A DNA stretch of 64,000 bases from Natrialba taiwanensis DSM 12281 (GTDB lineage: Archaea; Halobacteriota; Halobacteria; Halobacteriales; Natrialbaceae): contig NZ_AOIL01000042.1 of assembly GCF_000337595.1 (NCBI RefSeq), forward strand, positions 183,558 to 247,557. Direction: 5' to 3'. The position numbers and the translations under genes are program-made. Each line of letters starts with the position of its first letter. The stretch's first letter is position 1. Under the pieces are notes generated by a model. It searched no databases and was not told where the DNA came from. It saw only the letters and a program-made list of their open reading frames with translations. Below are positions 46,843 to 63,488 of this stretch, piece after piece.

Positions 46843-47715
46843 ATGACGACATCGGTCCCGGCGAACGGTATCGAGCGGTGGCGGTCGTCAGTCGCGCGTG
46901 CGCTTGAGTTGCTGGTCCACAGCAACCTCTTTATCTCGCTGGCGACGATGAGCGTCGTCCTCACGACGATGCTGTTGGCCGGGTTGCCGGTCGACCCGCT
47001 GCCGCTCTTTTTCGTCTTCGCGGTCACGATGTTCGTCTACACGATCAACCGGCTCACCGATCTCGCGGAGGACGAGACGAACGTCCCACGGCGGGCGGCG
47101 CTGACGAGGCAATACGGCCACCTCTGGTTGGCGGCGGGCACCTGTCTGTACCTCATTGCAATCGCCATCGCCGTTTTCCTCGGTGTTCCGGGTGCCGGCT
47201 ACATGCTCATCCCGCTCGTCGTGGCGTTGTTGTACTCTACAGTCGGCATCAAGCAACTCTTTCTCGTGAAAAACTGTTTCGTTGGCCTCGCCTGGGGATT
47301 GCTCCCCGCGGGTGCGGGCTACTACTATCGCGAACTCTGGACGACCGACGTCCTGTTTCTGGCCGGCTACGTCGCGGCGATGATCACCATCGCGGCGGTG
47401 ATATTCGACATCAAAGATATCGAGGGCGACCGCGAAGAAGGGATCGCGACGGTTCCCAACGTCTTCGGCCCGCGACGGACCCGGATTGTCACGCAGAGCG
47501 CGAACGCGGTCGTCGCCGTCGCCGTCATCGCACTCGTCGCAAGCGGTGTCCTCTCATCGGCGTTTCTCGCCGTCCTCGCGATGAACGGCTACGTCGCCCT
47601 CTATATCCCGTTCGCAAAACCGGAGTACGGGCCGCTGTACTACGGGTTCGTCGTCGACGGCGAGCACGTGTTTCTCGCCGCCGTCGTCTGCGCGCTGGAA
47701 CTGTTCGTCTGGTAA
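46843..47715 (+). CDS. UbiA-family prenyltransferase
   Basis: 290 residues with about nine membrane helices. The two prenyl-diphosphate motifs of UbiA are visible as TINRLTDLAEDETNVPRR (Asp-rich motif 1, about residues 64-81) and DIKDIEGDREEGIATVPNVFG (motif 2, about 188-208). The first is a variant of NxxxDxxxD. It attaches an isoprenoid chain to a small acceptor (lipid, quinone or carotenoid precursor); the acceptor is unknown. It is not closely similar to the UbiA in the cluster at 59.9 kb, whose motifs differ. Confidence 0.85.
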   Translation: MTTSVPANGIERWRSSVARALELLVHSNLFISLATMSVVLTTMLLAGLPVDPLPLFFVFAVTMFVYTINRLTDLAEDETNVPRRAALTRQYGHLWLAAGTCLYLIAIAIAVFLGVPGAGYMLIPLVVALLYSTVGIKQLFLVKNCFVGLAWGLLPAGAGYYYRELWTTDVLFLAGYVAAMITIAAVIFDIKDIEGDREEGIATVPNVFGPRRTRIVTQSANAVVAVAVIALVASGVLSSAFLAVLAMNGYVALYIPFAKPEYGPLYYGFVVDGEHVFLAAVVCALELFVW

Positions 47716-51580: not shown

Positions 51581-53590
51581 TCACTCCTGGAGTGAGAAGA
51601 CGGCCACCGTGTTCCCTTCCTCCTCGACTTGATTGCCGCCGCCGCCGGGGATCGCGACGTACTGTTTCTCCTCGTGTGGATCGTACCAGCTTATTGGCGC
51701 GCCATCGACGCCGTGGTCGCCGACCTCGTGCGTCGCGAGTTCTTCGCCGGTTTCGGTGTCGAGTGCGTGGAGGAGCCCAGTTGGTCCGCCCGCGAACGTG
51801 ACACCAGTTGCCGTGGTCAACGAGCCACCCCAGGGTGGGCCGGCCTCCCAGCTAAACCAGTGTTGCCATTTGATATCGCCGGTCAGCGGATCGAGACCGG
51901 CAATAACGCCCGCATTCTGGTTCCACTCCGGAACCGGTTCTGCGATGAGGTTTTCCTGCTCGCCGTTGCCGTCGTCCTCTTCGTCTTCTCCTCCGTCTTC
52001 GTCGCCGTTTTCCGCCTCCGCTTCCTCCTCTTTCGCAGCACCCTCGTCGCCTCCGTCGGCGTCCTCCTCCGGTGCGTGGAGTTCGTCGCCGCCGTTGCCA
52101 TTGCCATTGTCGCCTGCCGTTTCGTTTGCCGGCGTTTCATCGCTCTCTCGCTGTTCTCCCTCTTCGACCTCTTCGGCGTCGGCCGGCACGTCCTCTTCCG
52201 GCTGATCGCCCTCGTCCGGTTCCGTCGGCTCCGTCTTCCGGACCGTGTCCATGCCGATGTATCGCTGGCCGGGTTCGTACTCCACCTCGAACCACGAGAA
52301 CTTCATCGGGTAGTTGGTCCCCTTGACGACTAGCGTCCGCGATTCCGGATCGAACGCGCTCGGCTGCGGGTTCGTCCCCCCGATCAAGTCCGGCATGATC
52401 CAGGGTGACCGTTCGAGGTCGTCGTACGGCGGCAGGTTGAACGTGTTGAGGTGCTGGACGTACTCGTCGCTGCGCTGGTGGAGCTGGCCGGTCTCCATAT
52501 CGACCGTGTACACCCAGCCCGTCTTCCCCGGCCAGGTCGCAAACTTCCGAGACTCGCCCTCGTGTTCCGCCTCGAAGACGACCGGCGGACTCGGCGAGTC
52601 GTAGTCCCACCAGTCGTGCGGCGAGTCCTGGTGGTGCCACTGGTACTCGCCCGACTCGATGTCGACGGCGACTTTCCCGCACGAGTAGGGGTTGTAGCCC
52701 GGTCGAACGGTGCCATACCACGGTCCCGGGTTCGCCGACGGAATCACGACCGTTCCCGAGTCGGGTTCGACCGCACCCGCCGCCCAGGCGGTCGCGCCGC
52801 CGTGCATCCAGGAATCGCCGACCCACTCGTGTCCCGGCGTCATATTGACCCGCCACTGCGGATTCCCTTCGAGGTCGATACAGTCGAAGAAGCCGCTGAC
52901 GCCGAACTCGCCGCCGAAACTCCCCTTCATGATCCGCCCGTTGTAGATCAGCGGCGGGAACGACGAGGTCGTCCCGCGGGAGCGCTCCCAACTGAGTTCT
53001 TCGTGCGTGAGTTCGTCCGCGACCTGACCGCGGTAGAACGCTGCGCCATTGTAGTACCAGCGTTCCTCGCCCGTGTAACGATCGATCGCGAGCACGCCGA
53101 GATCGAGTGTGCTCTTGTAGACCGTATCACCGAGAACGGCCGCCCCGCGTTCGGCAGGCGGGGTCTGTTCCGACGCCCCGTCGCTGTTCTCGTAGAAGTG
53201 CGTCCAGAGGATATCCCCCGTTCGAGCGTTGAGCGCGTACAGCATGTCCGGCCCGACCGTGGTGTACATGATCGGCGGATCGCCGTCGACGACAATCGGT
53301 GATCCCTGGAAGTCGTTCGGATCTTCCGCAATTTCGAGTCGATACTCGAGTTCGAGATCGCCGACGTTCTCCGGCGTGATGACCTCGGCCGTCGTGTGTC
53401 GGTGGCCCTCGTAGCCGCCGCCGGCGATCAGCCAGTTCGTCTCGTCGGTCTGCGTCTCCGCGAGATCGGACTCGGTAACGTCTCGTTCGGGAATCTGGTC
53501 CGTATCTCCCTGTTCGACGATGGACTCGCCCGGTTTCTCGTGCCACGGTGCGTCTTCCGGCAGGTCACTGAGGTGTGATTCGTAGGTCAT
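51581..53590 (-). CDS. PQQ-dependent alcohol-dehydrogenase-like protein without signal peptide
   Basis: 669 residues of the quinoprotein eight-blade propeller: WLIAGGGYEGHRHTTAEVITPENV, LYALNARTGDILWTHFYEN, VLAIDRYTGEERWYYNG, PHDWWDYDSPSPPVVFEAE, WPGKTGWVYTVDMETGQL and ITGDIKWQH-like W-motifs. The PHDWWDYD tripeptide region matches the PQQ/calcium site of methanol and ethanol dehydrogenases; the adjacent-cysteine disulfide is absent. An acidic insert of ~110 residues (about 460-570) splits blade 7. It has no N-terminal export signal, but the gene 6 bases upstream encodes a Tat-signal protein, so export by hitchhiking is likely. Confidence 0.85.
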   Translation of the reverse strand: MTYESHLSDLPEDAPWHEKPGESIVEQGDTDQIPERDVTESDLAETQTDETNWLIAGGGYEGHRHTTAEVITPENVGDLELEYRLEIAEDPNDFQGSPIVVDGDPPIMYTTVGPDMLYALNARTGDILWTHFYENSDGASEQTPPAERGAAVLGDTVYKSTLDLGVLAIDRYTGEERWYYNGAAFYRGQVADELTHEELSWERSRGTTSSFPPLIYNGRIMKGSFGGEFGVSGFFDCIDLEGNPQWRVNMTPGHEWVGDSWMHGGATAWAAGAVEPDSGTVVIPSANPGPWYGTVRPGYNPYSCGKVAVDIESGEYQWHHQDSPHDWWDYDSPSPPVVFEAEHEGESRKFATWPGKTGWVYTVDMETGQLHQRSDEYVQHLNTFNLPPYDDLERSPWIMPDLIGGTNPQPSAFDPESRTLVVKGTNYPMKFSWFEVEYEPGQRYIGMDTVRKTEPTEPDEGDQPEEDVPADAEEVEEGEQRESDETPANETAGDNGNGNGGDELHAPEEDADGGDEGAAKEEEAEAENGDEDGGEDEEDDGNGEQENLIAEPVPEWNQNAGVIAGLDPLTGDIKWQHWFSWEAGPPWGGSLTTATGVTFAGGPTGLLHALDTETGEELATHEVGDHGVDGAPISWYDPHEEKQYVAIPGGGGNQVEEEGNTVAVFSLQE

Positions 53591-53596
53591 GGTCCG

Positions 53597-54535
53597 CTAG
53601 TTCGATACTGCGCTCCGCGGCGCGCGTTTATCGTCTGTAATCCGGATCACGTCCGTGATCAGGAACTCTTGGCTGATGATCATGAGTGCGGTACTGGCGG
53701 TCGTCAGCGTCGTCAGGTGGTCGTCTGCGATCTCCTCGGCCGCGAGGTCGCGCGCGGCGGAGCCGAGCAGGTAGTACCCGCCGAGCATGGACTTGACGTC
53801 CCAGAGGCCGCGGTCGATCATCTCGCCGGTGACCAGCGGCTCGCGCTGCCAGAGGTAGTGATCGAGTCCGTCGATCCACAGCAGCGACCCTTCCGCGGCC
53901 CGCTGGTGGAGCGGCGCGACGTACTCGTAGACGACGCCGTCGTCGACCGCATCTGCGGGCGGATAGTCCGGCGTCGCCATCCACCACGAAAGCTGTTCTC
54001 TCGCGTTAACGATGTTGACGACGAGCGCCGTCTGCTCGCGCTCCGCGAAGCCGACCTCCGAAAGCGTCGCCGGTAACCCATCGATGTGAACCAACTGTCG
54101 CGTCGTCGTCTCGATGTGGTCGGGCGTAAACGCCGGGAGCGTCTCCTCCGCACTCGCGAAAAAGCCGACTTCCGCGAGGTGGTCGTTGATTTCCCACGCC
54201 GGTGTCGTCAACGACTGATACGCCTCCGCTCCCGCGTCCGGAACCCCCATCGCCTCGAGTTCAGGCAGGGACTCGACTGACTCCGTCAGCGCCGCGAGTT
54301 GCTCGCTCAACAGCGCCGCATCGAGCGTCCCCGTCAACCCATCCTGCAGCGCGGTCCCCATTTCCGCCAGGCCGCTCGTTGTTTCGGTCGAAACGTTCTG
54401 TCTGAGGTCGGCAAGCGTTGCCCCCGCAACGCTGCCGCCTGCGATTACCCCGAGCGCTTTCAAGAACTCGCGGCGATCGCTGTCGCTGACCTCGCCGTAA
54501 CTGTATCGGTCTCTTGGATCGGTACCGTATGCCAT
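53597..54535 (-). CDS. Tat-signal helical protein, probable export partner of the dehydrogenase
   Basis: 312 residues. The N-terminus SDSDRREFLKALGVIAGGSVAGATLADL is a clear Tat signal (DRREFLKALG, twin Arg at about 21-22). The rest is alpha-helical and soluble (SEQLAALTESVESLPELEAMG, TRQLVHIDGLPATLSEVGFAEREQTALV). No known catalytic motif. It ends 6 bases before the dehydrogenase start on the same strand, so the two form an operon. This resembles small Tat-bearing subunits of periplasmic sugar-acid dehydrogenases that carry a signal-less catalytic subunit; I infer the same here. Confidence 0.7.
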   Translation of the reverse strand: MAYGTDPRDRYSYGEVSDSDRREFLKALGVIAGGSVAGATLADLRQNVSTETTSGLAEMGTALQDGLTGTLDAALLSEQLAALTESVESLPELEAMGVPDAGAEAYQSLTTPAWEINDHLAEVGFFASAEETLPAFTPDHIETTTRQLVHIDGLPATLSEVGFAEREQTALVVNIVNAREQLSWWMATPDYPPADAVDDGVVYEYVAPLHQRAAEGSLLWIDGLDHYLWQREPLVTGEMIDRGLWDVKSMLGGYYLLGSAARDLAAEEIADDHLTTLTTASTALMIISQEFLITDVIRITDDKRAPRSAVSN

Positions 54536-55281: not shown

Positions 55282-56691
55282 TCACCTGATGTCGAGTAAC
55301 GCCTCGATCGTCGGCGTGACGGCCGTCGCGTCGACCGTCCCCTCGAGTTCGGGTGCGAGTTCAGCTGCGGCCGGGCCGCCGAGTCCATAGCAGCCGACGG
55401 CCGACTCGTCCACGCGGCCGTGGGAACCGCTGACGGTTGTCGCGTCGAGCGACACGAGGCCGTCGTCGCCGAAGAACAGCTCACAGGGGTCAAAGCCGGG
55501 CTTGTCGTGGATGTCCATGTCGGTCGCGTACGGCGGCGCGTTCGCGTGGTCGGTCCACCAGTAGTACTGGAACCAGGCATCGCGGTCGGCGACGAGGATG
55601 AACTCGCCCGCGTTCGGGTGGTCGATCCCCCACTCGGACTTCTCGGCGTCGTCGATGATGGTATCGACGCCGTCGAGTTCACCGAGCAGTTCCCGAGCCG
55701 TCTCTAGCGCACCGTCGTCGGCGTAGACGTGCGCGATCTGGTGGTCGACCATGGCGAACGCCTCGGAGTTCGGGATATCGGCGTCGCCCGACGCATCGGT
55801 CTCGAGCAGCCCGGCGTCTCGGAGGACACGATTTGGGAACAGCGGCCGCTCCACGTCGTGGAAGCCGTATTCGCTGACGAGGTTGACGACGGTTTCGTCC
55901 CAGCGCTCGGTTTCGGAGAGGAACGAGAGGAAGTCCCCGAGCAGGTCGTCGACGGTCTCGAGTTCAGTTTGAAACGCCGCGGAACTGGGGCCGTCGCTCT
56001 GGCCGACGTAGTCGAGGTGGGGGACGTATACCCACAGCAGGTCGGGATCGAACCGGTCGACCGCCTCCTTCGCTGCGGCGAGAATCCACTGGCTGCCCTC
56101 CTCGTTCGCCCCCGGCCCCCAGTAGTTGTGCAGCGGGAAGTGGGCGTATTCCGCCTGCAAGTCGTCGTAGAACTCGTCGGGGTTCGTCCAGCAGTTCATC
56201 TCGAGGAGGGTGTTGTCCTCGTCCTCGATGGGCGAGGGCGTCACCGCGATGTCGGCGGTCGTCCCGATCAGGTGCTGGAAGAACAGGGCACCGGTCGTCA
56301 GGCCGGCCTCGCTCGCGGTCTCCCAGATCCGGTTTCGATCGCCGCGGTCGCGCTCCCAGAACTCGGCGACTTCGCGCTCGCGGTCGAACTCGCCGCTCGA
56401 GACATCGCCGTGCTCCTCCGGACCGGTTCCGGTCGCGAGCGTCGTCTGGACCGGCACCGTCACTGCCGGAAACGGCGGCCGGAGATCGGCGACGCGCTCG
56501 GCGGGGAACATCGAGTGCAGCGTTGGCGTTCGTTCGGCACCGATGTGTTGCGGTTGTAACCCGACCACGTCGAGGACGATGACGCGTTCCGTCGCGTCGG
56601 TCGCTTCCGCGCTGAACGCGAGCGGTGCGGTCGCGGCTTCTCCGTCGGTGTTGTGCGGGGTAGCAGTCGAAGTGTCTGTCTCGTCAGTCAT
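55282..56691 (-). CDS. Type I phosphodiesterase/nucleotide pyrophosphatase, EboF-like
   Basis: 469 residues of the alkaline-phosphatase superfamily. Motifs: VIVLDVVGLQPQHIGAERTPTLHSMFP, PPFPAVTVPVQTTLATGTGPEEHG (the Thr nucleophile near residue 80 in VTVPVQTTL), VYVPHLDYVGQSDGP and the C-terminal GSHGRVDES; metal-binding Asp/His residues are present. No signal peptide. It probably hydrolyses a phosphodiester or a prenyl/nucleotide diphosphate. It overlaps the inositol-3-phosphate synthase stop by four bases (ATGA), so it is the second gene of a two-gene operon. Nucleotide pyrophosphatase is the EboF component of the bacterial Ebo operon. Confidence 0.85.
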   Translation of the reverse strand: MTDETDTSTATPHNTDGEAATAPLAFSAEATDATERVIVLDVVGLQPQHIGAERTPTLHSMFPAERVADLRPPFPAVTVPVQTTLATGTGPEEHGDVSSGEFDREREVAEFWERDRGDRNRIWETASEAGLTTGALFFQHLIGTTADIAVTPSPIEDEDNTLLEMNCWTNPDEFYDDLQAEYAHFPLHNYWGPGANEEGSQWILAAAKEAVDRFDPDLLWVYVPHLDYVGQSDGPSSAAFQTELETVDDLLGDFLSFLSETERWDETVVNLVSEYGFHDVERPLFPNRVLRDAGLLETDASGDADIPNSEAFAMVDHQIAHVYADDGALETARELLGELDGVDTIIDDAEKSEWGIDHPNAGEFILVADRDAWFQYYWWTDHANAPPYATDMDIHDKPGFDPCELFFGDDGLVSLDATTVSGSHGRVDESAVGCYGLGGPAAAELAPELEGTVDATAVTPTIEALLDIR

Positions 56692-57929
56692 GCATCACTG
56701 TGGCGAGCGGCGTAATCGTACAGCCAGTGCAGTTGCGCCGAGAAGTCGTGTTCGTCGACGCCGATCGGGGCCTTGAAGAACGACGCCAGGTGCGGCTGGA
56801 AGCCGCCCTCGCCGAACTCGTCGGCGTGGACGATCAGTCGGACCAGATCGAGCACGAGCGGCGCGGCCAGGGCCGAATCCGAGCCCTCCCAGGTGAACTG
56901 CATCGTCATTTCGGTGTTCAGGAACCCCTCGAAATGGATGTAGTCCCAGGCGGTCTTCCAGTCCGCGAGCGAAGGCGTGTAGTCGATCCGGACGCGGTTG
57001 TGGCCGATATCGGGTAGGATGGATTCGAGCACGTCGCCCTTGCTCGAGAGTTTGCCGGCGGCGTTCGCCTCGTCCTCCAGCACGAGGCCGTCCTTGTTGC
57101 CGAGGATGTTGTGGCCCTCCCAGGACAGGACGTTCAGATTACGGCCGGCGAACATCGGCGCGAGCGCGGACTTGACCAGCGTCTCGCCGGTCTTGGCGTC
57201 ACGGCCCACGTGTGGCACCCCACGGTCGACAGCGAGTTCTCGAATCCCGCCGAGGGCGTTGCCCGTGCTCGGCGTGAAGTTGATGAAGGGGTGGCCGGCG
57301 TCGATCGCGGCGTAGGCGTAGAGGACGCTCGCGGGCAGGTCCCGGTCGTCCGAATCGATGGCGTCCTCGAGCGCTTCGCGGGTATCGTATCGTTCCGGCG
57401 AGGCGAGTTCGGGTTCGGTGGAGGCAACGTTGACGACGACGAGTCGATCGATCTCGTGGGCGGTCCGGAAGGACTCGTAGTCGTCGCGGATCTGGTCGAC
57501 GACGGTTCGTATCGCGAGTTCGCGATCGAGGTGGTCACTGTCGTCCGTGACGGCGGCCCCGCAGTTTACCGCCGTGCCGACTTCGATGCGCTCGTCCACG
57601 GCGGCGAGGTCGTCGCGGACGCTTGCGAGCGTCTCCTCGTCGGGGACGCCGTTTCGCTCGCACTGGCGCTCGGCCTGGTCGACGAGCGAGGTCGGATCGA
57701 TGTCGTGGCCGCCGAAGACGAACGCCGAAACGGGCGGCAGCTCGAGGCTCGAGACGGGTTCGCGCTCGGTGACCATCCCAGTCGTCTCGGCGCGACCGGT
57801 CGCGATCGCCCGAGCGCCGACGATCGACATGGTTGCGACGTTTCCACGCGCACCGACGAGCCAGACGCCGATTCGCTCCGCGTTCGTCAGCTGGGCCGGC
57901 TCGTCCCGGGACGGTGACTCAGCGGTCAT
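56688..57929 (-). CDS. Inositol-3-phosphate synthase
   Basis: 413 residues from the ATG at 57929; 90 residues of open frame upstream are not conserved and are rejected. MIPS signatures: IGVWLVGARGNVATMSIVGARAI (NAD-binding), INFTPSTGNALGGIREL, GRDAKTGETLVKSALAPMF, NVLSWEGHNILGNKDGLVLEDEANAAGKLSSKGDVLES and HFEGFLNTEMTMQFTWEGSDSALAAPLVLDLVRL. It converts glucose-6-phosphate to 1L-myo-inositol-1-phosphate with NAD+. Placed first in the minus operon of the Ebo-like cluster, where it may take the place of EboD, a different sugar-phosphate cyclase. Confidence 0.92.
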   Translation of the reverse strand: MTAESPSRDEPAQLTNAERIGVWLVGARGNVATMSIVGARAIATGRAETTGMVTEREPVSSLELPPVSAFVFGGHDIDPTSLVDQAERQCERNGVPDEETLASVRDDLAAVDERIEVGTAVNCGAAVTDDSDHLDRELAIRTVVDQIRDDYESFRTAHEIDRLVVVNVASTEPELASPERYDTREALEDAIDSDDRDLPASVLYAYAAIDAGHPFINFTPSTGNALGGIRELAVDRGVPHVGRDAKTGETLVKSALAPMFAGRNLNVLSWEGHNILGNKDGLVLEDEANAAGKLSSKGDVLESILPDIGHNRVRIDYTPSLADWKTAWDYIHFEGFLNTEMTMQFTWEGSDSALAAPLVLDLVRLIVHADEFGEGGFQPHLASFFKAPIGVDEHDFSAQLHWLYDYAARHSDA

Positions 57930-58230
57930 TTGGCCCCGCGGACGTTCGACGGACGGGCACGATTCGTTCTGTCGAGTTCTCCAGCGGTCCGTGGCGACCA
58001 TCGCGCGATCGGTCGTGAGTTCGTCGACAGCGGCCGGGAGTGGTCGGTCATCCGGAAGCAATCCGTTCGGCACGGGTTTTGTTATGCCCGGCGTAGCACG
58101 CGTAAACCTGTATTGAGCGTTCGTAACACGATATTCCCCGCGAGTCGCGCCACCGTCATTCAGGGACAACAGGAGGTTGCTTGTGTGAACGACCGACATT
58201 CCAAAAGCGAGTCATCGCCGTACTGCGGTT
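57930..58230. promoter_or_regulatory. Divergent promoter region of the Ebo-like cluster
   Basis: 301 bp separate the minus operon (inositol-phosphate synthase and phosphodiesterase) from the plus operon (TatD-like, isomerase, UbiA). The AT-rich stretch GCGTAAACCTGTATTGAG at about 58098-58115 lies centrally and could carry promoters for both. No gene fits here. Confidence 0.5.
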
Positions 58231-59031
58231 ATGCGCATTATCGACCCGCACATGCACATGGTGTCACGCGCCGCGGACGACTACAAACGGGCGCGGCGCG
58301 CCGGCATCGAGTGCTGTATCGAGCCGGCGTTCTGGAGCGGGCAGGACAAGCATCACGCGGGTGCGTTCTTCGATTACTTCGAACAGATCATCGACCACGA
58401 GACCGATCGCGCCGAGCGGACGGCGAACGTGGACCACTACGTCACGATCGGACTCGAACCGAAGGAGGCGAACTATCGGGACATGGCCGAGGAGGTCCTC
58501 GAGCGCATCCCCGAGTACCTGGACCGCGACCCCGTCGTCGGCGTCGGCGAGATCGGCTTCGACCAGGTGACCGACGACGAGGAGTGGGCCCTCCGCGAGC
58601 AACTGGCGATCGCCGAGGACCGCGACCTCCCGGTCATCATCCACACACCCCACACCGACAAGCCGGCCGGCACCGAGCGCATCGTCGAGATCATCGAGGA
58701 GATGGGCGTCACCCAGGACCGGATCATCATCGACCACAACACGGAGAACACGATCGACATCTCCGCGCGGACCGACTGCTGGATCGGCTTTACCCTCTAC
58801 CCCGGCAAGATCGAGGCCGACGCGGCGATCGACCTCCTGGAGGAGTACGGCACCGACAACATGATCTTCAACAGCGCCGCCGACTGGGACCCCTCCGACC
58901 CGCTCGCGGTTCCCAAGGCCCGCGACGAGATGATAGATCGCGGCTGGGATCGCAAAGAGGTCCACAAAGTCGTTTTCGAGAACCCCTACGAGTTCTTCGA
59001 GCAGTCGCCGAACTTCGAGTACGAGGCCTGA
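58231..59031 (+). CDS. TatD-like metal-dependent hydrolase, EboB-like
   Basis: 266 residues, a TIM-barrel amidohydrolase. Metal ligands are visible: DPHMHM (HxH, residues 5-10), EIGFD (near residue 110), IIHTPHTDK (about 130-138), IDHNTEN (about 165) and the late Asp in NSAADWDPSDP (about 220). The ATG at 58231 starts MRIIDPHMHM directly. Most TatD enzymes act on DNA, but EboB-type members sit in secondary-metabolite clusters and probably open or trim a small-molecule intermediate. It ends 3 bases before the next gene. Confidence 0.88.
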   Translation: MRIIDPHMHMVSRAADDYKRARRAGIECCIEPAFWSGQDKHHAGAFFDYFEQIIDHETDRAERTANVDHYVTIGLEPKEANYRDMAEEVLERIPEYLDRDPVVGVGEIGFDQVTDDEEWALREQLAIAEDRDLPVIIHTPHTDKPAGTERIVEIIEEMGVTQDRIIIDHNTENTIDISARTDCWIGFTLYPGKIEADAAIDLLEEYGTDNMIFNSAADWDPSDPLAVPKARDEMIDRGWDRKEVHKVVFENPYEFFEQSPNFEYEA

Positions 59032-59034
59032 CCC

Positions 59035-59865
59035 ATGCAGTTTGGCTTTTCCACCAACGCCTTCAGGGAGTACCAACTCGAGGACGCGATCGAAGAACTC
59101 GCCGACGCGGGCTACGATGGCGTCGAAATCTTACTCGACGAACCGCACCTCTACCCGCCGAACGCGACCGAGGACGACATCGCGCGCGTCCGCACCGTCC
59201 TCGACGACAACGACATCGCAATCAGCAACGCGAACGCGTTCATGCTGACGGCGATCGAGGACTTCCACCATCCGTCGTTCATCGAACCCGACGAAGACTA
59301 CCGCCGCGAGCGGATCGACTACACCCTCGCGGCGCTCGATACCGCCGCCGAACTCGGCGCGCCACACATTTCGATCGAACCCGGCGGCCCGATTCCCGAG
59401 GAGAAATCCCGCGAGTGGGCCACGGACACGTTCGTCGACGGCCTCCGCGAGGTCACAGATCGCGCCGAGGCTGTCGGCGTCGACGTCATGGTCGAACCCG
59501 AACCCGACCTCCTGATCGAAACGTCCGACGAGTTCGTCGACCTGGTAGCGCGCATCGACTCGGAGCGCGTCCGGTGTAACTTCGACGCCGGGCACCTCTA
59601 CTGCGTCGGCGAGGACCCCACCGCGCTGGTCGCGGACCTCGACGAGTTCACGACTCACTACCACCTAGAGGACATTCCCGCGGATCGCCGGCACGAACAC
59701 ACCCAACTCGGCGAGGGGTCGATGGACATCGACGGGTTCCTCAGCGAACTCGACGACCGCGGCTACAACGGCTTCATCACGATCGAACTCTATCCCTACG
59801 AGGAGACGCCGGTCGAGACCGCCCGCGGGGCGATGGCGTACCTCGAGGAACACGGGTGGGCATAG
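59035..59865 (+). CDS. Xylose-isomerase-fold sugar isomerase/epimerase, EboE-like (1)
   Basis: 276 residues of the AP-endonuclease-2/xylose isomerase TIM barrel. Motifs: QFGFSTNAFREYQLEDAIEELADAGYDGVEILLDEPHL, ISIEPGGPIPEEKSREW, VMVEPEPDLLIET, CNFDAGHLYCVG and YHLEDIPADRRHEHTQLGEGSMDIDGF, with metal-binding Glu, Asp and His. The YHLEDI...HTQLGEG motif is the typical sugar-isomerase loop. The gene fills the gap between the TatD-like and UbiA genes with 3 and 1 bases, so it is cotranscribed. EboE-type function: isomerisation of a cyclitol or sugar intermediate. Confidence 0.88.
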   Translation: MQFGFSTNAFREYQLEDAIEELADAGYDGVEILLDEPHLYPPNATEDDIARVRTVLDDNDIAISNANAFMLTAIEDFHHPSFIEPDEDYRRERIDYTLAALDTAAELGAPHISIEPGGPIPEEKSREWATDTFVDGLREVTDRAEAVGVDVMVEPEPDLLIETSDEFVDLVARIDSERVRCNFDAGHLYCVGEDPTALVADLDEFTTHYHLEDIPADRRHEHTQLGEGSMDIDGFLSELDDRGYNGFITIELYPYEETPVETARGAMAYLEEHGWA

Positions 59866-59866
59866 G

Positions 59867-60832
59867 GTGGCCGGCGGCGGTGTCGATTGTAGCGACGATG
59901 CGCGCGACCGCTCGCTCCGTCCGACCCTCGCCGATATCGCCGAACTGGTTCGCGTTCCAAACCTCTTTACCGCTCCGCCCGATGTCGTCCTCGGCGCGGC
60001 ACTCGCCGCTATCGCCGGCGCTGAACTCGCAATCCCGACCGGCGCGGGCCTCGCCGTCGTCTCCGTCCTGCTCTACGCCGCCGGGACGACGCTCAACGAT
60101 GCGTTCGACGCGCCGATCGACGCCCGCGAGCGACCCGAGCGCCCGATCCCGTCCGGCCGCATCTCCCGCCGGAGCGCGTTCGGATTCGGTGCCGGACTCC
60201 TGGTCGTGGCCGTCGCCGTCGCGTTCGGCGTCGCCGGGGCCACGGCCGCGGCCGTCGCCGCTGCGCTCGCCAGTACGATCGTTCTCTACGACGGCGCGCT
60301 CAAGGGCACGGCTGCGGGCTTTCTCGCGATGGGAACGACTCGCGGGCTGAACGTCCTCCTCGGCGTCACCGGAGCGACCGCTGGGGCGGGCGACCCAGTC
60401 CTGACTGAACTCGGGCCGACGCTGCTCGCCGTCCCGGCGGTCGTCGTCGCCTACATCGCCGCCGTGACGTTCATGGCGGCGCGTGAGGCCGAGGGTGGGA
60501 ACAGGGACGCGGTCGTCGTCGCCGCCGCAGGCGCGCTCGTAGCGCTCGTCGCTCTCGTCCGACTTCTCGTCGCCGTTCGGCCGCCACCGCCCGAAACCGC
60601 GGCGGCCGTCGCCTTCGCCGTCGCCTTCTGCTGGTGGGTCGGCCGCCCGCTTCGCGCCGCCTACGCGGATCCCGTTCCGGCAACCGTCGGCCCCGCGGTC
60701 GGTGCCTGCGTGCTCGGGCTCGTTCTCCTCGATGCGGCATTCGCCTCGGTGGCCGGACTCGGTTGGGGACTTCTCACCGGCGCGTTCCTCGTCCCGGCGG
60801 TCGGCCTCGCGCGCCTGTTCGATGTCACGTAA
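59867..60832 (+). CDS. UbiA-family prenyltransferase, EboC-like
   Basis: 321 residues starting with GTG one base after the isomerase stop. About nine membrane helices. Motif 1 is TLNDAFDAPIDARERPERPIP (NDxxD...D, Asn77-Asp85) and motif 2 is YDGALKGTAAGFLAMGTTRG (Tyr141-Asp142 onward), followed by LNVLLG. The MGxxRGLNVLLG segment is typical of EboC-type UbiA enzymes. It transfers a polyprenyl or geranylgeranyl chain to an acceptor at the membrane, and its operon position makes the cluster's cyclitol or sugar product the likely acceptor. Confidence 0.88.
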   Translation: MAGGGVDCSDDARDRSLRPTLADIAELVRVPNLFTAPPDVVLGAALAAIAGAELAIPTGAGLAVVSVLLYAAGTTLNDAFDAPIDARERPERPIPSGRISRRSAFGFGAGLLVVAVAVAFGVAGATAAAVAAALASTIVLYDGALKGTAAGFLAMGTTRGLNVLLGVTGATAGAGDPVLTELGPTLLAVPAVVVAYIAAVTFMAAREAEGGNRDAVVVAAAGALVALVALVRLLVAVRPPPPETAAAVAFAVAFCWWVGRPLRAAYADPVPATVGPAVGACVLGLVLLDAAFASVAGLGWGLLTGAFLVPAVGLARLFDVT

Positions 60833-60870
60833 TCTCGCGAGACCGTCACGTAATACTGTGATACCGTAAT
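60824..60870. repeat. Tandem operator-like repeat GTCACGTAAT
   Basis: GTCACGTAAT occurs at 60824-60833 (overlapping the UbiA stop codon) and again at 60845-60854, exactly 21 bp apart, two helical turns. A third weaker match, ACCGTAAT, follows at about 60863-60870. They lie upstream of the second isomerase gene (ATG at 60983). Same-face spacing suits a dimeric regulator, perhaps the HTH-10 protein at 61930. Role inferred. Confidence 0.45.
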
Positions 60871-60982
60871 TCCGCGATCGCCGGGATCGGAGTCGTCGAA
60901 CCCTGGTTTCGAACCTTCCCCGTCATACCATCCCTGCACACCCCGTACAAACCCCTTAGTAACCCATCGGTGTACCCCGTCC

Positions 60983-61831
60983 ATGGTCGACCTCGCCTTC
61001 TCGACGAACGCCTACACGCGCTACTCGCTGTCCGACGCGGTCCGCCACATCGCAAACCACGGCTACGCCGGCGTCGAACTCCTCGGCGACGAACCCCACG
61101 CGTACTTCCCCGAGTTCAGCGACGCAGCCCGGACCGACCTCCGTGATGCACTCGACGAAACTGAACTCGCGGTGTCGAACATCAACGCGAACACGGCGAC
61201 GGGGTACTACGACGATGCCCCGCCATCATCGTTCTTCGAACCGAGCGTCATCCGTGCCGACGCGGACGCTCGCGAGTGGCGCATCGACTACACGAAGCGC
61301 GCCATCGACCTGGCCGACGCGGTCGACGCGCCTGCGGTCTGTCTCGCGACCGGACGACCGCTTCCGGGAACCCTGCCCGACGACGCCCGTGAGTACCTTC
61401 ACGAGTCGCTGCACGACATCCTCGACTACGCCGAACCGATGGGAATCGGCGTGGGCATCGAGTTCGAGCCCGAACTCTTGATCGAGAACACCGACGAAAC
61501 TCTCGCGCTGATCGACGACCTCGACCGCGATGGGCTCGGCGTCAACCTCGACCTCGGCCACGCCGCCGTCTATGGCGAGGACGTGACCGAAAGCATCCGC
61601 CGCAGCGCCGGCGCGATCACCGGCATCCACCTCGAGGACATCGTCGGCGGCCGCCGCGGCAAACACTATCACCGAATTCCGGGCGAGGGCGACCTCGACT
61701 TTCGCGCCATCTTCGACGCACTCGACGATATCGGCTACGACGGCTTCGCGACGCTCGAACTCTACACCCATCCCGACGACCCCGACCGGGCCGCCCGCGA
61801 GGCCCACGCTGAACTCGCTGCGTACGTGTGA
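60983..61831 (+). CDS. Xylose-isomerase-fold sugar isomerase/epimerase, EboE-like (2)
   Basis: 282 residues, paralogous to the gene at 59035: DLAFSTNAYTRYSLSDAVRHIANHGYAGVELLGDEPHAYFP, VCLATGRPLPGTLPDD, GIGVGIEFEPELLIENTDE, VNLDLGHAAVYG and GIHLEDIVGGRRGKHYHRIPGEGDLDF carry the metal and substrate residues of the TIM barrel. The ATG at 60983 is preceded by 150 bp with operator-like repeats, so it may have its own promoter. Having two such isomerases in one cluster suggests sequential or alternative epimerisation steps. Confidence 0.88.
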   Translation: MVDLAFSTNAYTRYSLSDAVRHIANHGYAGVELLGDEPHAYFPEFSDAARTDLRDALDETELAVSNINANTATGYYDDAPPSSFFEPSVIRADADAREWRIDYTKRAIDLADAVDAPAVCLATGRPLPGTLPDDAREYLHESLHDILDYAEPMGIGVGIEFEPELLIENTDETLALIDDLDRDGLGVNLDLGHAAVYGEDVTESIRRSAGAITGIHLEDIVGGRRGKHYHRIPGEGDLDFRAIFDALDDIGYDGFATLELYTHPDDPDRAAREAHAELAAYV

Positions 61832-61929: not shown

Positions 61930-62571
61930 TCAAACGAGTTCCGTAATCACTTTCGTTTCGATTTTCCGGAGATGCTCGCCGACCGTTCCCGGGGAGATAC
62001 TCTCTCGATCCGCAAGGTCGCGGAGGGTCGCACGCCGCGGCATCTCGTAATAGCCCTCATCGATCGCTAGTTCCAACAGTTCTTGCTGGCGTTCCGTTAG
62101 CAGCGACGCGAGCCGGCGCATATCCGAGTAATACTCGCCGATCCCTTCGAGCGTAATCTGGATTCCGTCGGGGATTTCTGCGATCGCCTCTCGGATCTTT
62201 TCGTCCTCTCCAAGCATAGTTATCCGAAGTCCGCCTTGGTTGGTGTATTCCATCGGCCAGTCCACAACGATCTCATTCTGTCGGAATATACTGAGGAGGT
62301 CGGTCATGAGAGCAGTTGCTCGAAAATGGAGGTAGACAAGCCCTTCCGACGCCTCGGACGTTTCGCAAGCCAGCACGTCTGGACTCGCCTCCAATACTTC
62401 CGCGTTCCGTTCGAAGTCACCACGGAGTTGGTACAGTCCGACGCCGGTTCCGTCATCCAAGAGGTTGATGTAGTGAATCGCGTCACCCGTTACTGCGTGA
62501 TCAGGTGCGCGATCGCCGTTAGAACAGCGTTCATCGTCGATCCGATGAATGACGATCGTAATATATCTCAT
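61930..62571 (-). CDS. HTH-10 (bacterio-opsin activator-like) transcription regulator
   Basis: 213 residues. The C-terminal HTH-10 domain is LTERQQELLELAIDEGYYEMPRRATLRDLADRESISPGTVGEHLRKIE (about residues 155-205). The N-terminal part holds a regulator-type sensor region (NLLDDGTGVGLYQLRGDFERNAEVL), with no PAS or GAF motif that I recognise. It converges on the Ebo-like plus operon, so it is a candidate local regulator, but no direct evidence exists. Confidence 0.88.
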   Translation of the reverse strand: MRYITIVIHRIDDERCSNGDRAPDHAVTGDAIHYINLLDDGTGVGLYQLRGDFERNAEVLEASPDVLACETSEASEGLVYLHFRATALMTDLLSIFRQNEIVVDWPMEYTNQGGLRITMLGEDEKIREAIAEIPDGIQITLEGIGEYYSDMRRLASLLTERQQELLELAIDEGYYEMPRRATLRDLADRESISPGTVGEHLRKIETKVITELV

Positions 62572-62768
62572 ACCATCGATCCGTTCGTTGTGGCCAGCGT
62601 GCTCAGGACAACCCTGTTCAGTCGCTCTGTCGAGTAACGGGTCGATCGGGCTTCGTCTGTCGCAGCCAGTGCCGCATCAAAAAAGAGTACGCAGTGTACA
62701 TACTTAAACCCGCCTCAGATGTACGGCGCTATTCGCATGTGTCGGTGGGCCGTCTCTACCATCAACGC

Positions 62769-63488
62769 ATGCCGAGCAGAACAGCTGAAAAACCCGACAC
62801 GGACCGGGCGGAATCGAAACCGCCAACTCCCGGTCATCCGATCGACGCCGCGCTCTCCGAGCGGTTTGACCTTGCCGAGCATCGGCGGTATCTCGCGCGT
62901 GAACTCGACGGGGTGATACTGGATCTCGGCGCGGGGGGCGGTGCAATGGTCCCGTACCTGCAAACGGCAGTCCAGCGTGAGCCAGCACTCCGCCTGCACG
63001 CAATCGAACCGGATCCCAACAGACGGAGGCAGGCGAAGCAAACAGCTACCACCCACAATCTGGACATACACCTGCAATCAGGACGGGCTGAATCCCTCCC
63101 CTATGCGGACGATACGTTCGACGTGGTCATCGCCTCCGCGGTGTTTTGTACGGTACAGGACCCGTTGTTGGCCCTCGAGGAAGTCCACCGCGTCGTGAAG
63201 CCGAATGGCGAGTTCCGCTTTCTCGAACACGTCCGGTCGGACGGGCTGCGCGGCTACGTCCAGGACGTGGTGACACCGCTCTGGAAACGGATCGACAACG
63301 GCTGCCATCTCAACCGTCGAACGGACGACTGGATCGCAGCGGGCCCCTTCGCTCTCGACGAAATCGAAACGCTGCGTCTCGGTGTGAGTCCGTCCAGGCC
63401 CTTCGTGCGCGGAACTGCCACGCCGGTGAGCCATACCGAGACTGACAGCCGAATCTCAGATGATGATGGATTTCAAGAGTTACACTGA
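62769..63488 (+). CDS. SAM-dependent methyltransferase
   Basis: 239 residues from the ATG at 62769 (25 residues upstream in frame lack family similarity). Class I Rossmann methyltransferase: motif I VILDLGAGGGAMVPYL, acidic loop LHAIEPDPNRRRQA, then LDIHLQSGRAESLPYADDTFDVVIASAVFCTVQDP and VKPNGEFRFLEHVRS. This resembles UbiE/arsenite-type small-molecule methyltransferases. A TATA-like TACTTAAAC at about 62700 lies 70 bases upstream. Possibly a late step for the neighbouring cluster's product, though it is separate from it. Confidence 0.82.
   Translation: MPSRTAEKPDTDRAESKPPTPGHPIDAALSERFDLAEHRRYLARELDGVILDLGAGGGAMVPYLQTAVQREPALRLHAIEPDPNRRRQAKQTATTHNLDIHLQSGRAESLPYADDTFDVVIASAVFCTVQDPLLALEEVHRVVKPNGEFRFLEHVRSDGLRGYVQDVVTPLWKRIDNGCHLNRRTDDWIAAGPFALDEIETLRLGVSPSRPFVRGTATPVSHTETDSRISDDDGFQELH

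Follow-up and report, generated by a model that had tools for sequence, protein, structure and literature searches.

An Ebo-like gene cluster of Natrialba taiwanensis with an inositol-3-phosphate synthase in the position of EboD

Results

The stretch of DNA analyzed here (the window) comprises 64,000 nucleotides of Natrialba taiwanensis DSM 12281 (contig NZ_AOIL01000042.1, positions 183,558 to 247,557). At 55282-61831 of the window lie six genes in a compact divergent cluster related to the bacterial Ebo (Edb) operons, among them a gene for an inositol-3-phosphate synthase (IPS). A preliminary description, made from the sequence alone, had listed the same six open reading frames (ORFs), and their coordinates and Pfam folds confirm the families named there:

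55282..56691, minus strand: NPP, type I phosphodiesterase/nucleotide pyrophosphatase of the alkaline-phosphatase superfamily, predicted EboF orthologue (PF01663, 5.6e-50; bacterial EboF profile, 331 bits)
56688..57929, minus strand: IPS, putative EboD substitute (PF07994/PF01658, 1.3e-44 and 1.7e-32; the ORF extends to 58199)
57930..58230, no strand: divergent intergenic (putative promoter) region separating IPS-NPP from the EboB operon (start-codon comparison; spacing of about 300 bp in Halobaculum)
58231..59031, plus strand: TatD, TatD-like metal-dependent hydrolase, predicted EboB orthologue (PF01026, 1.1e-18; EboB profile, 329 bits)
59035..59865, plus strand: XI1, xylose-isomerase-fold enzyme (PF01261, 9.5e-45)
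59867..60832, plus strand: UbiA, predicted EboC-family prenyltransferase, GTG start (PF01040, 2.2e-16)
60983..61831, plus strand: XI2, xylose-isomerase-fold enzyme (PF01261, 2.1e-41)

As described before, NPP and IPS share 4 bp (56688-56691, minus strand), and on the plus strand 3 bp separate TatD from XI1 and 1 bp separates XI1 from UbiA; 150 bp lie between UbiA and XI2. The 503-amino acid IPS ORF is too long at its 5' end. Because its upstream part contains stop codons in a relative of the same genus (locus L020) and IPS homologues have about 400 amino acids, the start is likely to lie near 57929 (413 amino acids), which leaves a divergent promoter region of 301 bp.

Profiles for EboB, EboC, EboF and the other Ebo proteins were built exclusively from bacterial EboD-type clusters, without archaeal members. 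The window TatD protein, which matched the EboB profile at 329 bits, shares about 43% identity with EboB across the full length. A tree with archaeal AF1765-like TatD proteins as its root nested the haloarchaeal TatD proteins in the bacterial EboB family (100/100), with EboB of a deltaproteobacterial metagenome-assembled genome (MAG) as their sister (97/93). This nesting indicates that the haloarchaeal EboB gene was probably acquired from bacteria. EboB has as its sister this AF1765-like family (L252-L267), whose members come from non-haloarchaeal genomes within the phylum, score about 160 bits and include one uncharacterized solved structure, 3guw. Other NPP proteins of the same genome reached at most 42 bits with the EboF profile, against the 331 bits of the window NPP.

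The window UbiA protein scored 148 bits against the bacterial EboC profile, and the next UbiA protein of the same genome, which resembles digeranylgeranylglyceryl phosphate synthase, scored 52 bits. Its matches to the NCBIfam models NF035940 (EboC, 195.6 bits) and NF045897 (SCO3242, 171.6 bits) lie under the respective cut-offs of 250 and 260, and the protein falls outside the SCO clade in the tree. The haloarchaeal UbiA proteins form one clade (100/99) within the EboC/SCO3242 family (family support 92/85), without a resolved sister, and the nine other UbiA proteins among the ten UbiA-family matches of the genome are placed outside this family. In the aligned family, including its haloarchaeal members, the first Asp-rich motif NDxxDxxxD is retained with few exceptions and the second is absent; at the position of the latter, the digeranylgeranylglyceryl-phosphate-synthase-like protein of the same genome has DVEDVEGD. 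Among solved structures, digeranylgeranylglyceryl phosphate synthase, an enzyme that prenylates a polyol phosphate, is the nearest relative of the window UbiA. A search of viral contigs with the window UbiA protein yielded no relatives. Profiles and trees thus identify orthologues of EboB, EboC and EboF, in agreement with the earlier view of the locus as an archaeal relative of Ebo, and the TatD and UbiA proteins branch within EboB and within EboC/SCO3242, respectively, rather than with unrelated enzymes.

IPS matched the myo-inositol-1-phosphate synthase (mIPS) of Archaeoglobus fulgidus (1u1i) at 285 bits, and the residues aligned to N255, K274, K278, K306, D332 and K367, which we take to be the catalytic residues of mIPS, are all conserved. 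XI1 and XI2 retain the aligned Glu, Asp, His and Glu residues expected in metal-dependent isomerases. The preliminary description had listed both among the proteins of an Ebo-like cluster, but neither is EboE: against the EboE model (cut-off 250) they scored 29 and 20 bits, respectively, and both lie on a branch separate from EboE in the isomerase tree, so that EboE is missing from the cluster. XI1 could possibly be a functional stand-in for EboE without being its orthologue. XI2 falls into a clade with bacterial XI2 proteins of two loci (L092 and the deltaproteobacterial L112), and it accompanies IPS in haloarchaea and in the deltaproteobacterial MAG.

No EboD, a sugar-phosphate cyclase of the dehydroquinate synthase fold, was detected in the window, and 145 haloarchaeal genomes contained no DHQ_synthase. 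EboA, which had not been seen in the window before, is absent from these 145 genomes as well, the only three matches to its model (NF035938) reaching at best 19 bits (cut-off 50). The bacterial EboA, EboD and EboE profiles did not match any of the window proteins, nor did the EboG profile match in haloarchaeal loci. With EboB, EboC and EboF present and EboA, EboD and EboE lacking (three of the six EboA-F features), the cluster is, by its predicted gene content, a variant Ebo-like cluster and not a canonical Ebo operon.

Of the 16 haloarchaeal loci examined first, 15 contain five or all six of the genes, mostly as NPP-IPS / TatD-XI1-UbiA-XI2, and plasmids of Halobaculum and Halocatena are among these loci. 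EboB, XI1 and UbiA were present in all 27 haloarchaeal loci, and in ORF clustering across these loci only the six genes recurred broadly. The arrangement is therefore not a chance one, since the unit recurs and no other surrounding gene does so as widely. UbiA, IPS (PF07994) and EboB-like TatD were each found in 14 of the 145 haloarchaeal genomes, and these were the identical 14. Among 392 haloarchaeal genomes, 50 contain both IPS and EboB, two only IPS (G208, G384), five EboB without IPS (G298, G315, G324, G359, G369) and 335 neither; the corresponding Fisher p of 7.7e-55 overstates independence because the species are related. Matches extend over 19 genera, and genera such as g2 and g3 include, among the listed rows, members with and members without the cluster, agreeing for both genes. 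IPS and EboB lie within 5 kb of one another in 45 of the 50 genomes, and in the other five they are apart (about 240 kb in G020, 965 kb in G249, on separate contigs in three). At two of the five IPS-less haloarchaeal clusters (L216, L218) we found IPS fragments. A plasmid of Halomarina sp. BND7 carries a haloarchaeal-type IPS amid glycosyltransferases, with no Ebo-like genes nearby (L039 9031-11496).

Clusters with IPS are not confined to archaea, although the arrangement had been described as archaeal. On Streptomyces plasmids, IPS, a SCO3242-family UbiA, an isomerase, EboA, TatD, EboE and NPP are encoded in one operon, and the RefSeq annotation already reads this way. Gemmatirosa has EboE, TatD, NPP, UbiA, IPS and an isomerase together, the deltaproteobacterial groundwater MAG has IPS-XI2-TatD-UbiA (L112, JACREV010000085.1), and Nonomuraea also has IPS with EboB and EboC. 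Counted from lists, 29 of 31 EboB-bearing actinobacterial and Gemmatirosa plasmid records contain IPS. In a paper on Streptomyces coelicolor (PMC3610822), SCO3242 is named a transferase and SCO3243 is given as myo-inositol phosphate synthase. We found no paper linking IPS to ebo in the open-licence literature, and the word inositol does not occur in the article of Yurchenko et al. (PMC5133447).

Several related arrangements were observed alongside. In Streptomyces sp. NBC_00019, the annotation places a ScyD/ScyE family protein immediately upstream of the IPS-type Ebo cluster (L034 4079-5278), which recalls the link between ebo and scytonemin genes in cyanobacteria. A different IPS cluster, consisting of IPS, a Gfo/Idh/MocA oxidoreductase, a YcaO-like protein and a xylose-isomerase-fold protein, is found on Hymenobacter and Roseomonas plasmids (L229 5941-12567, L230 5977-13152). 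In MAGs of Verrucomicrobiota, Kiritimatiellota and Lentisphaerota (L108, L111, L115), EboB stands beside an EboC-family UbiA as a minimal pair, and neither EboD nor IPS was found at these loci. Flanking the EboD-type cluster of Ketogulonicigenium (L044 533-9896) are a sugar phosphate isomerase and two Gfo/Idh/MocA oxidoreductases.

Scored with our profiles, 113 EboB loci comprised 47 with EboD, 23 with IPS and none with both; in the remaining 43, neither was present within the available stretch, and many of these are short contigs or split clusters. The 80 bacterial loci included were the best matches to a Gemmatirosa EboB and do not constitute a census. An extra xylose-isomerase-fold protein (XI2 or XIs) was present at all 23 IPS loci and at none of the 47 EboD loci. 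Given this exclusivity and the accompanying isomerase, EboD is replaceable by IPS plus isomerase in terms of predicted gene content. On the EboB tree, IPS-type clusters occupy three positions: those of actinobacteria lie among EboA-type clusters, that of Gemmatirosa lies among EboG-type clusters, and those of haloarchaea group with the deltaproteobacterium. Descent of all IPS-type clusters from a single swap was rejected when they were forced into one EboB clade (approximately unbiased (AU) test, p 2.8e-38). The same held when Gemmatirosa (p 0.011) or the actinobacteria (p 2e-63) were left out of the forced group. As judged from this tree, there are at least three switches between EboD and IPS, a count that is unrooted and does not tell which cyclase came first. 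The statement that IPS has replaced EboD is thus upheld only in the sense that IPS stands where EboD stands elsewhere.

A single clade for the isomerases of all IPS clusters was also rejected (AU p 7e-5, with long branches present), which leaves no indication that IPS and isomerase form a single ancient cassette. Isomerases from actinobacteria and Gemmatirosa group (100/100) with a Methylobacterium isomerase and with a Hymenobacter isomerase from the cluster of IPS, YcaO-like and Gfo/Idh/MocA genes, which suggests that isomerases of this type are a general partner of IPS.

Three neighboring genes were considered as further members of the cluster and rejected because they are not conserved with the unit: a quinoprotein gene (51581-53590), an HTH_10 regulator gene (61930-62571) and a methyltransferase gene (62694-63488). 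The gene pair at 51581-54535, likewise without conserved linkage to the cluster, encodes a Tat-signal protein that has no Pfam match, followed by a PQQ-type beta-propeller dehydrogenase with an acidic low-complexity insert. About 12 kb upstream of the cluster lies a second UbiA-family gene (window 46951-47604; G000:C42:230508-231161), which is outside the EboC group.

Discussion

We propose that the cluster is a haloarchaeal member of an inositol-type Ebo variant, in which EboB, EboC and EboF are kept, EboD is exchanged for IPS plus XI2, and a prenylated cyclitol is the product; we assign this statement as a whole a probability of roughly 0.6. Its parts differ in strength. The kinship with Ebo and the equivalence of EboD and IPS in gene content are highly probable from the comparisons above, and the chances that the product is a prenylated cyclitol are about even.

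According to this proposal, IPS would convert glucose-6-phosphate to myo-inositol-3-phosphate, as strongly suggested by its conserved active site. XI2, perhaps together with XI1, may then epimerize or isomerize the cyclitol or its keto form, in keeping with the fold and the co-occurrence of these proteins. This step would yield the cyclitol otherwise supplied by EboD from sedoheptulose-7-phosphate, on which EboD was proposed to act by Yurchenko et al. 2016 (PMC5133447). The membrane protein UbiA (EboC) would, judging by its family, join a prenyl chain to the cyclitol; EboF may remove a phosphate or diphosphate and EboB may catalyze a hydrolytic step, both finishing or recycling. The pathway would end in a prenylated cyclitol lipid or in a membrane factor acting as EboA-F do in bacteria, and its product could function as a lipid carrier for export, as experiments in Nostoc suggest (PMC6282210), or as a secreted protectant.

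Several observations weigh against this proposal. In UbiA, as in all EboC proteins examined, the second Asp-rich motif found in typical UbiA enzymes is missing, and prenyl-diphosphate chemistry is therefore not assured. EboA and EboE, found in most Ebo operons, are absent here. Five haloarchaeal genomes retain the cluster without an intact IPS, so IPS may not be strictly needed, or inositol may be taken up. Both cluster types have EboF, yet a cyclase of the EboD type would be expected to liberate the phosphate itself, for which reason EboF is probably not simply the inositol phosphatase. Finally, published ebo experiments point to metabolite export and not to a defined prenylated product (PMC6282210).

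The last of these points, together with the missing Asp-rich motif and the ScyD/ScyE family protein upstream of the Streptomyces sp. NBC_00019 cluster, would also fit the kind of apparatus for export or "metabolite traffic" that has been proposed for cyanobacterial EboA-F; a cyclitol would then be a ligand or cofactor, and no prenylated cyclitol would be made. We regard this as rather unlikely, as most of the six proteins resemble soluble enzymes with their catalytic residues retained; moreover, trafficking is compatible with a lipid carrier made by the cluster and is not a full alternative to synthesis. A role of IPS in archaetidylinositol headgroups, its adjacency to Ebo-like genes being incidental or regulatory, corresponds to a proposal for Haloferax volcanii, in which a PF07994 match was noted and HVO_B0213 was placed under polar-lipid headgroup synthesis by Pfeiffer and Dyall-Smith 2021 (PMC8305020). 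However, IPS is found in only 52 of 392 haloarchaeal genomes, 50 of them with the EboB cluster even where IPS is unlinked, and the link of IPS with EboB and EboC recurs in Streptomyces and Gemmatirosa, which makes this role improbable. Still less credible, to the point of being very improbable, is a sugar or inositol catabolic cluster with a UbiA gene present by chance: the resemblance of the xylose-isomerase-fold proteins to IolI/IolE/IolO models, and the Gfo/Idh/MocA oxidoreductases and sugar transporters adjoining some plasmid copies, are outweighed by the orthology to EboB, EboC and EboF, by the anabolic nature of IPS, and by the 27 loci, across which the six genes are not widely accompanied by any dehydrogenase or transporter.

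The proposed inositol-type variant can be compared with four known systems. It shares with the bacterial EboD-type operon (eboABCDEF, with an eboG variant; PMC5133447) the EboB, EboC and EboF orthologues, the compact organization and one cyclitol-forming enzyme each, but has IPS for EboD and XI1/XI2 for EboE, no EboA or EboG, a divergent two-operon layout and an archaeal host. The actinobacterial SCO3242/SCO3243-type cluster, represented by a plasmid of Streptomyces sp. NBC_00376, similarly combines IPS with an EboC-family UbiA, EboB, EboF and an extra xylose-isomerase-fold protein. By contrast, it keeps EboA and EboE, and because its EboB and its isomerase fall into different clades from the haloarchaeal ones, its IPS swap is independent. 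The deltaproteobacterial cluster has the sister EboB (99/96) and related XI2 and IPS proteins and likewise no EboD, EboE or EboA, but it differs in lacking EboF and a second isomerase and in its single-strand order. The mIPS of A. fulgidus, which acts in the di-inositol-phosphate pathway, belongs to the same family as IPS and has the same active-site residues. Whereas the A. fulgidus enzyme makes an osmolyte, the haloarchaeal IPS is tied to EboB, EboC and EboF.

More generally, and tentatively, with a likelihood slightly short of even, EboD alone and IPS with its partner isomerase could be interchangeable, unrelated modules feeding an EboB-EboC-EboF core. In that case, the entire Ebo family would constitute a prenyl-cyclitol pathway, which haloarchaeal inositol synthesis would serve almost exclusively.

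In conclusion, Ebo operons are present in many bacterial phyla and algal plastids, and to our knowledge no substrate or product of any of them is known. The repeated and mutually exclusive exchange of EboD for IPS is a natural experiment: it indicates that a cyclitol is required by the core and favors the view that the Ebo pathway builds a cyclitol compound. Through IPS, a known and assayable enzyme, a first Ebo substrate becomes testable. The cluster extends Ebo-type biochemistry to archaea, some of which, the haloarchaea, are genetically tractable, and calls into question whether haloarchaeal IPS is rightly assigned to membrane lipid headgroups.

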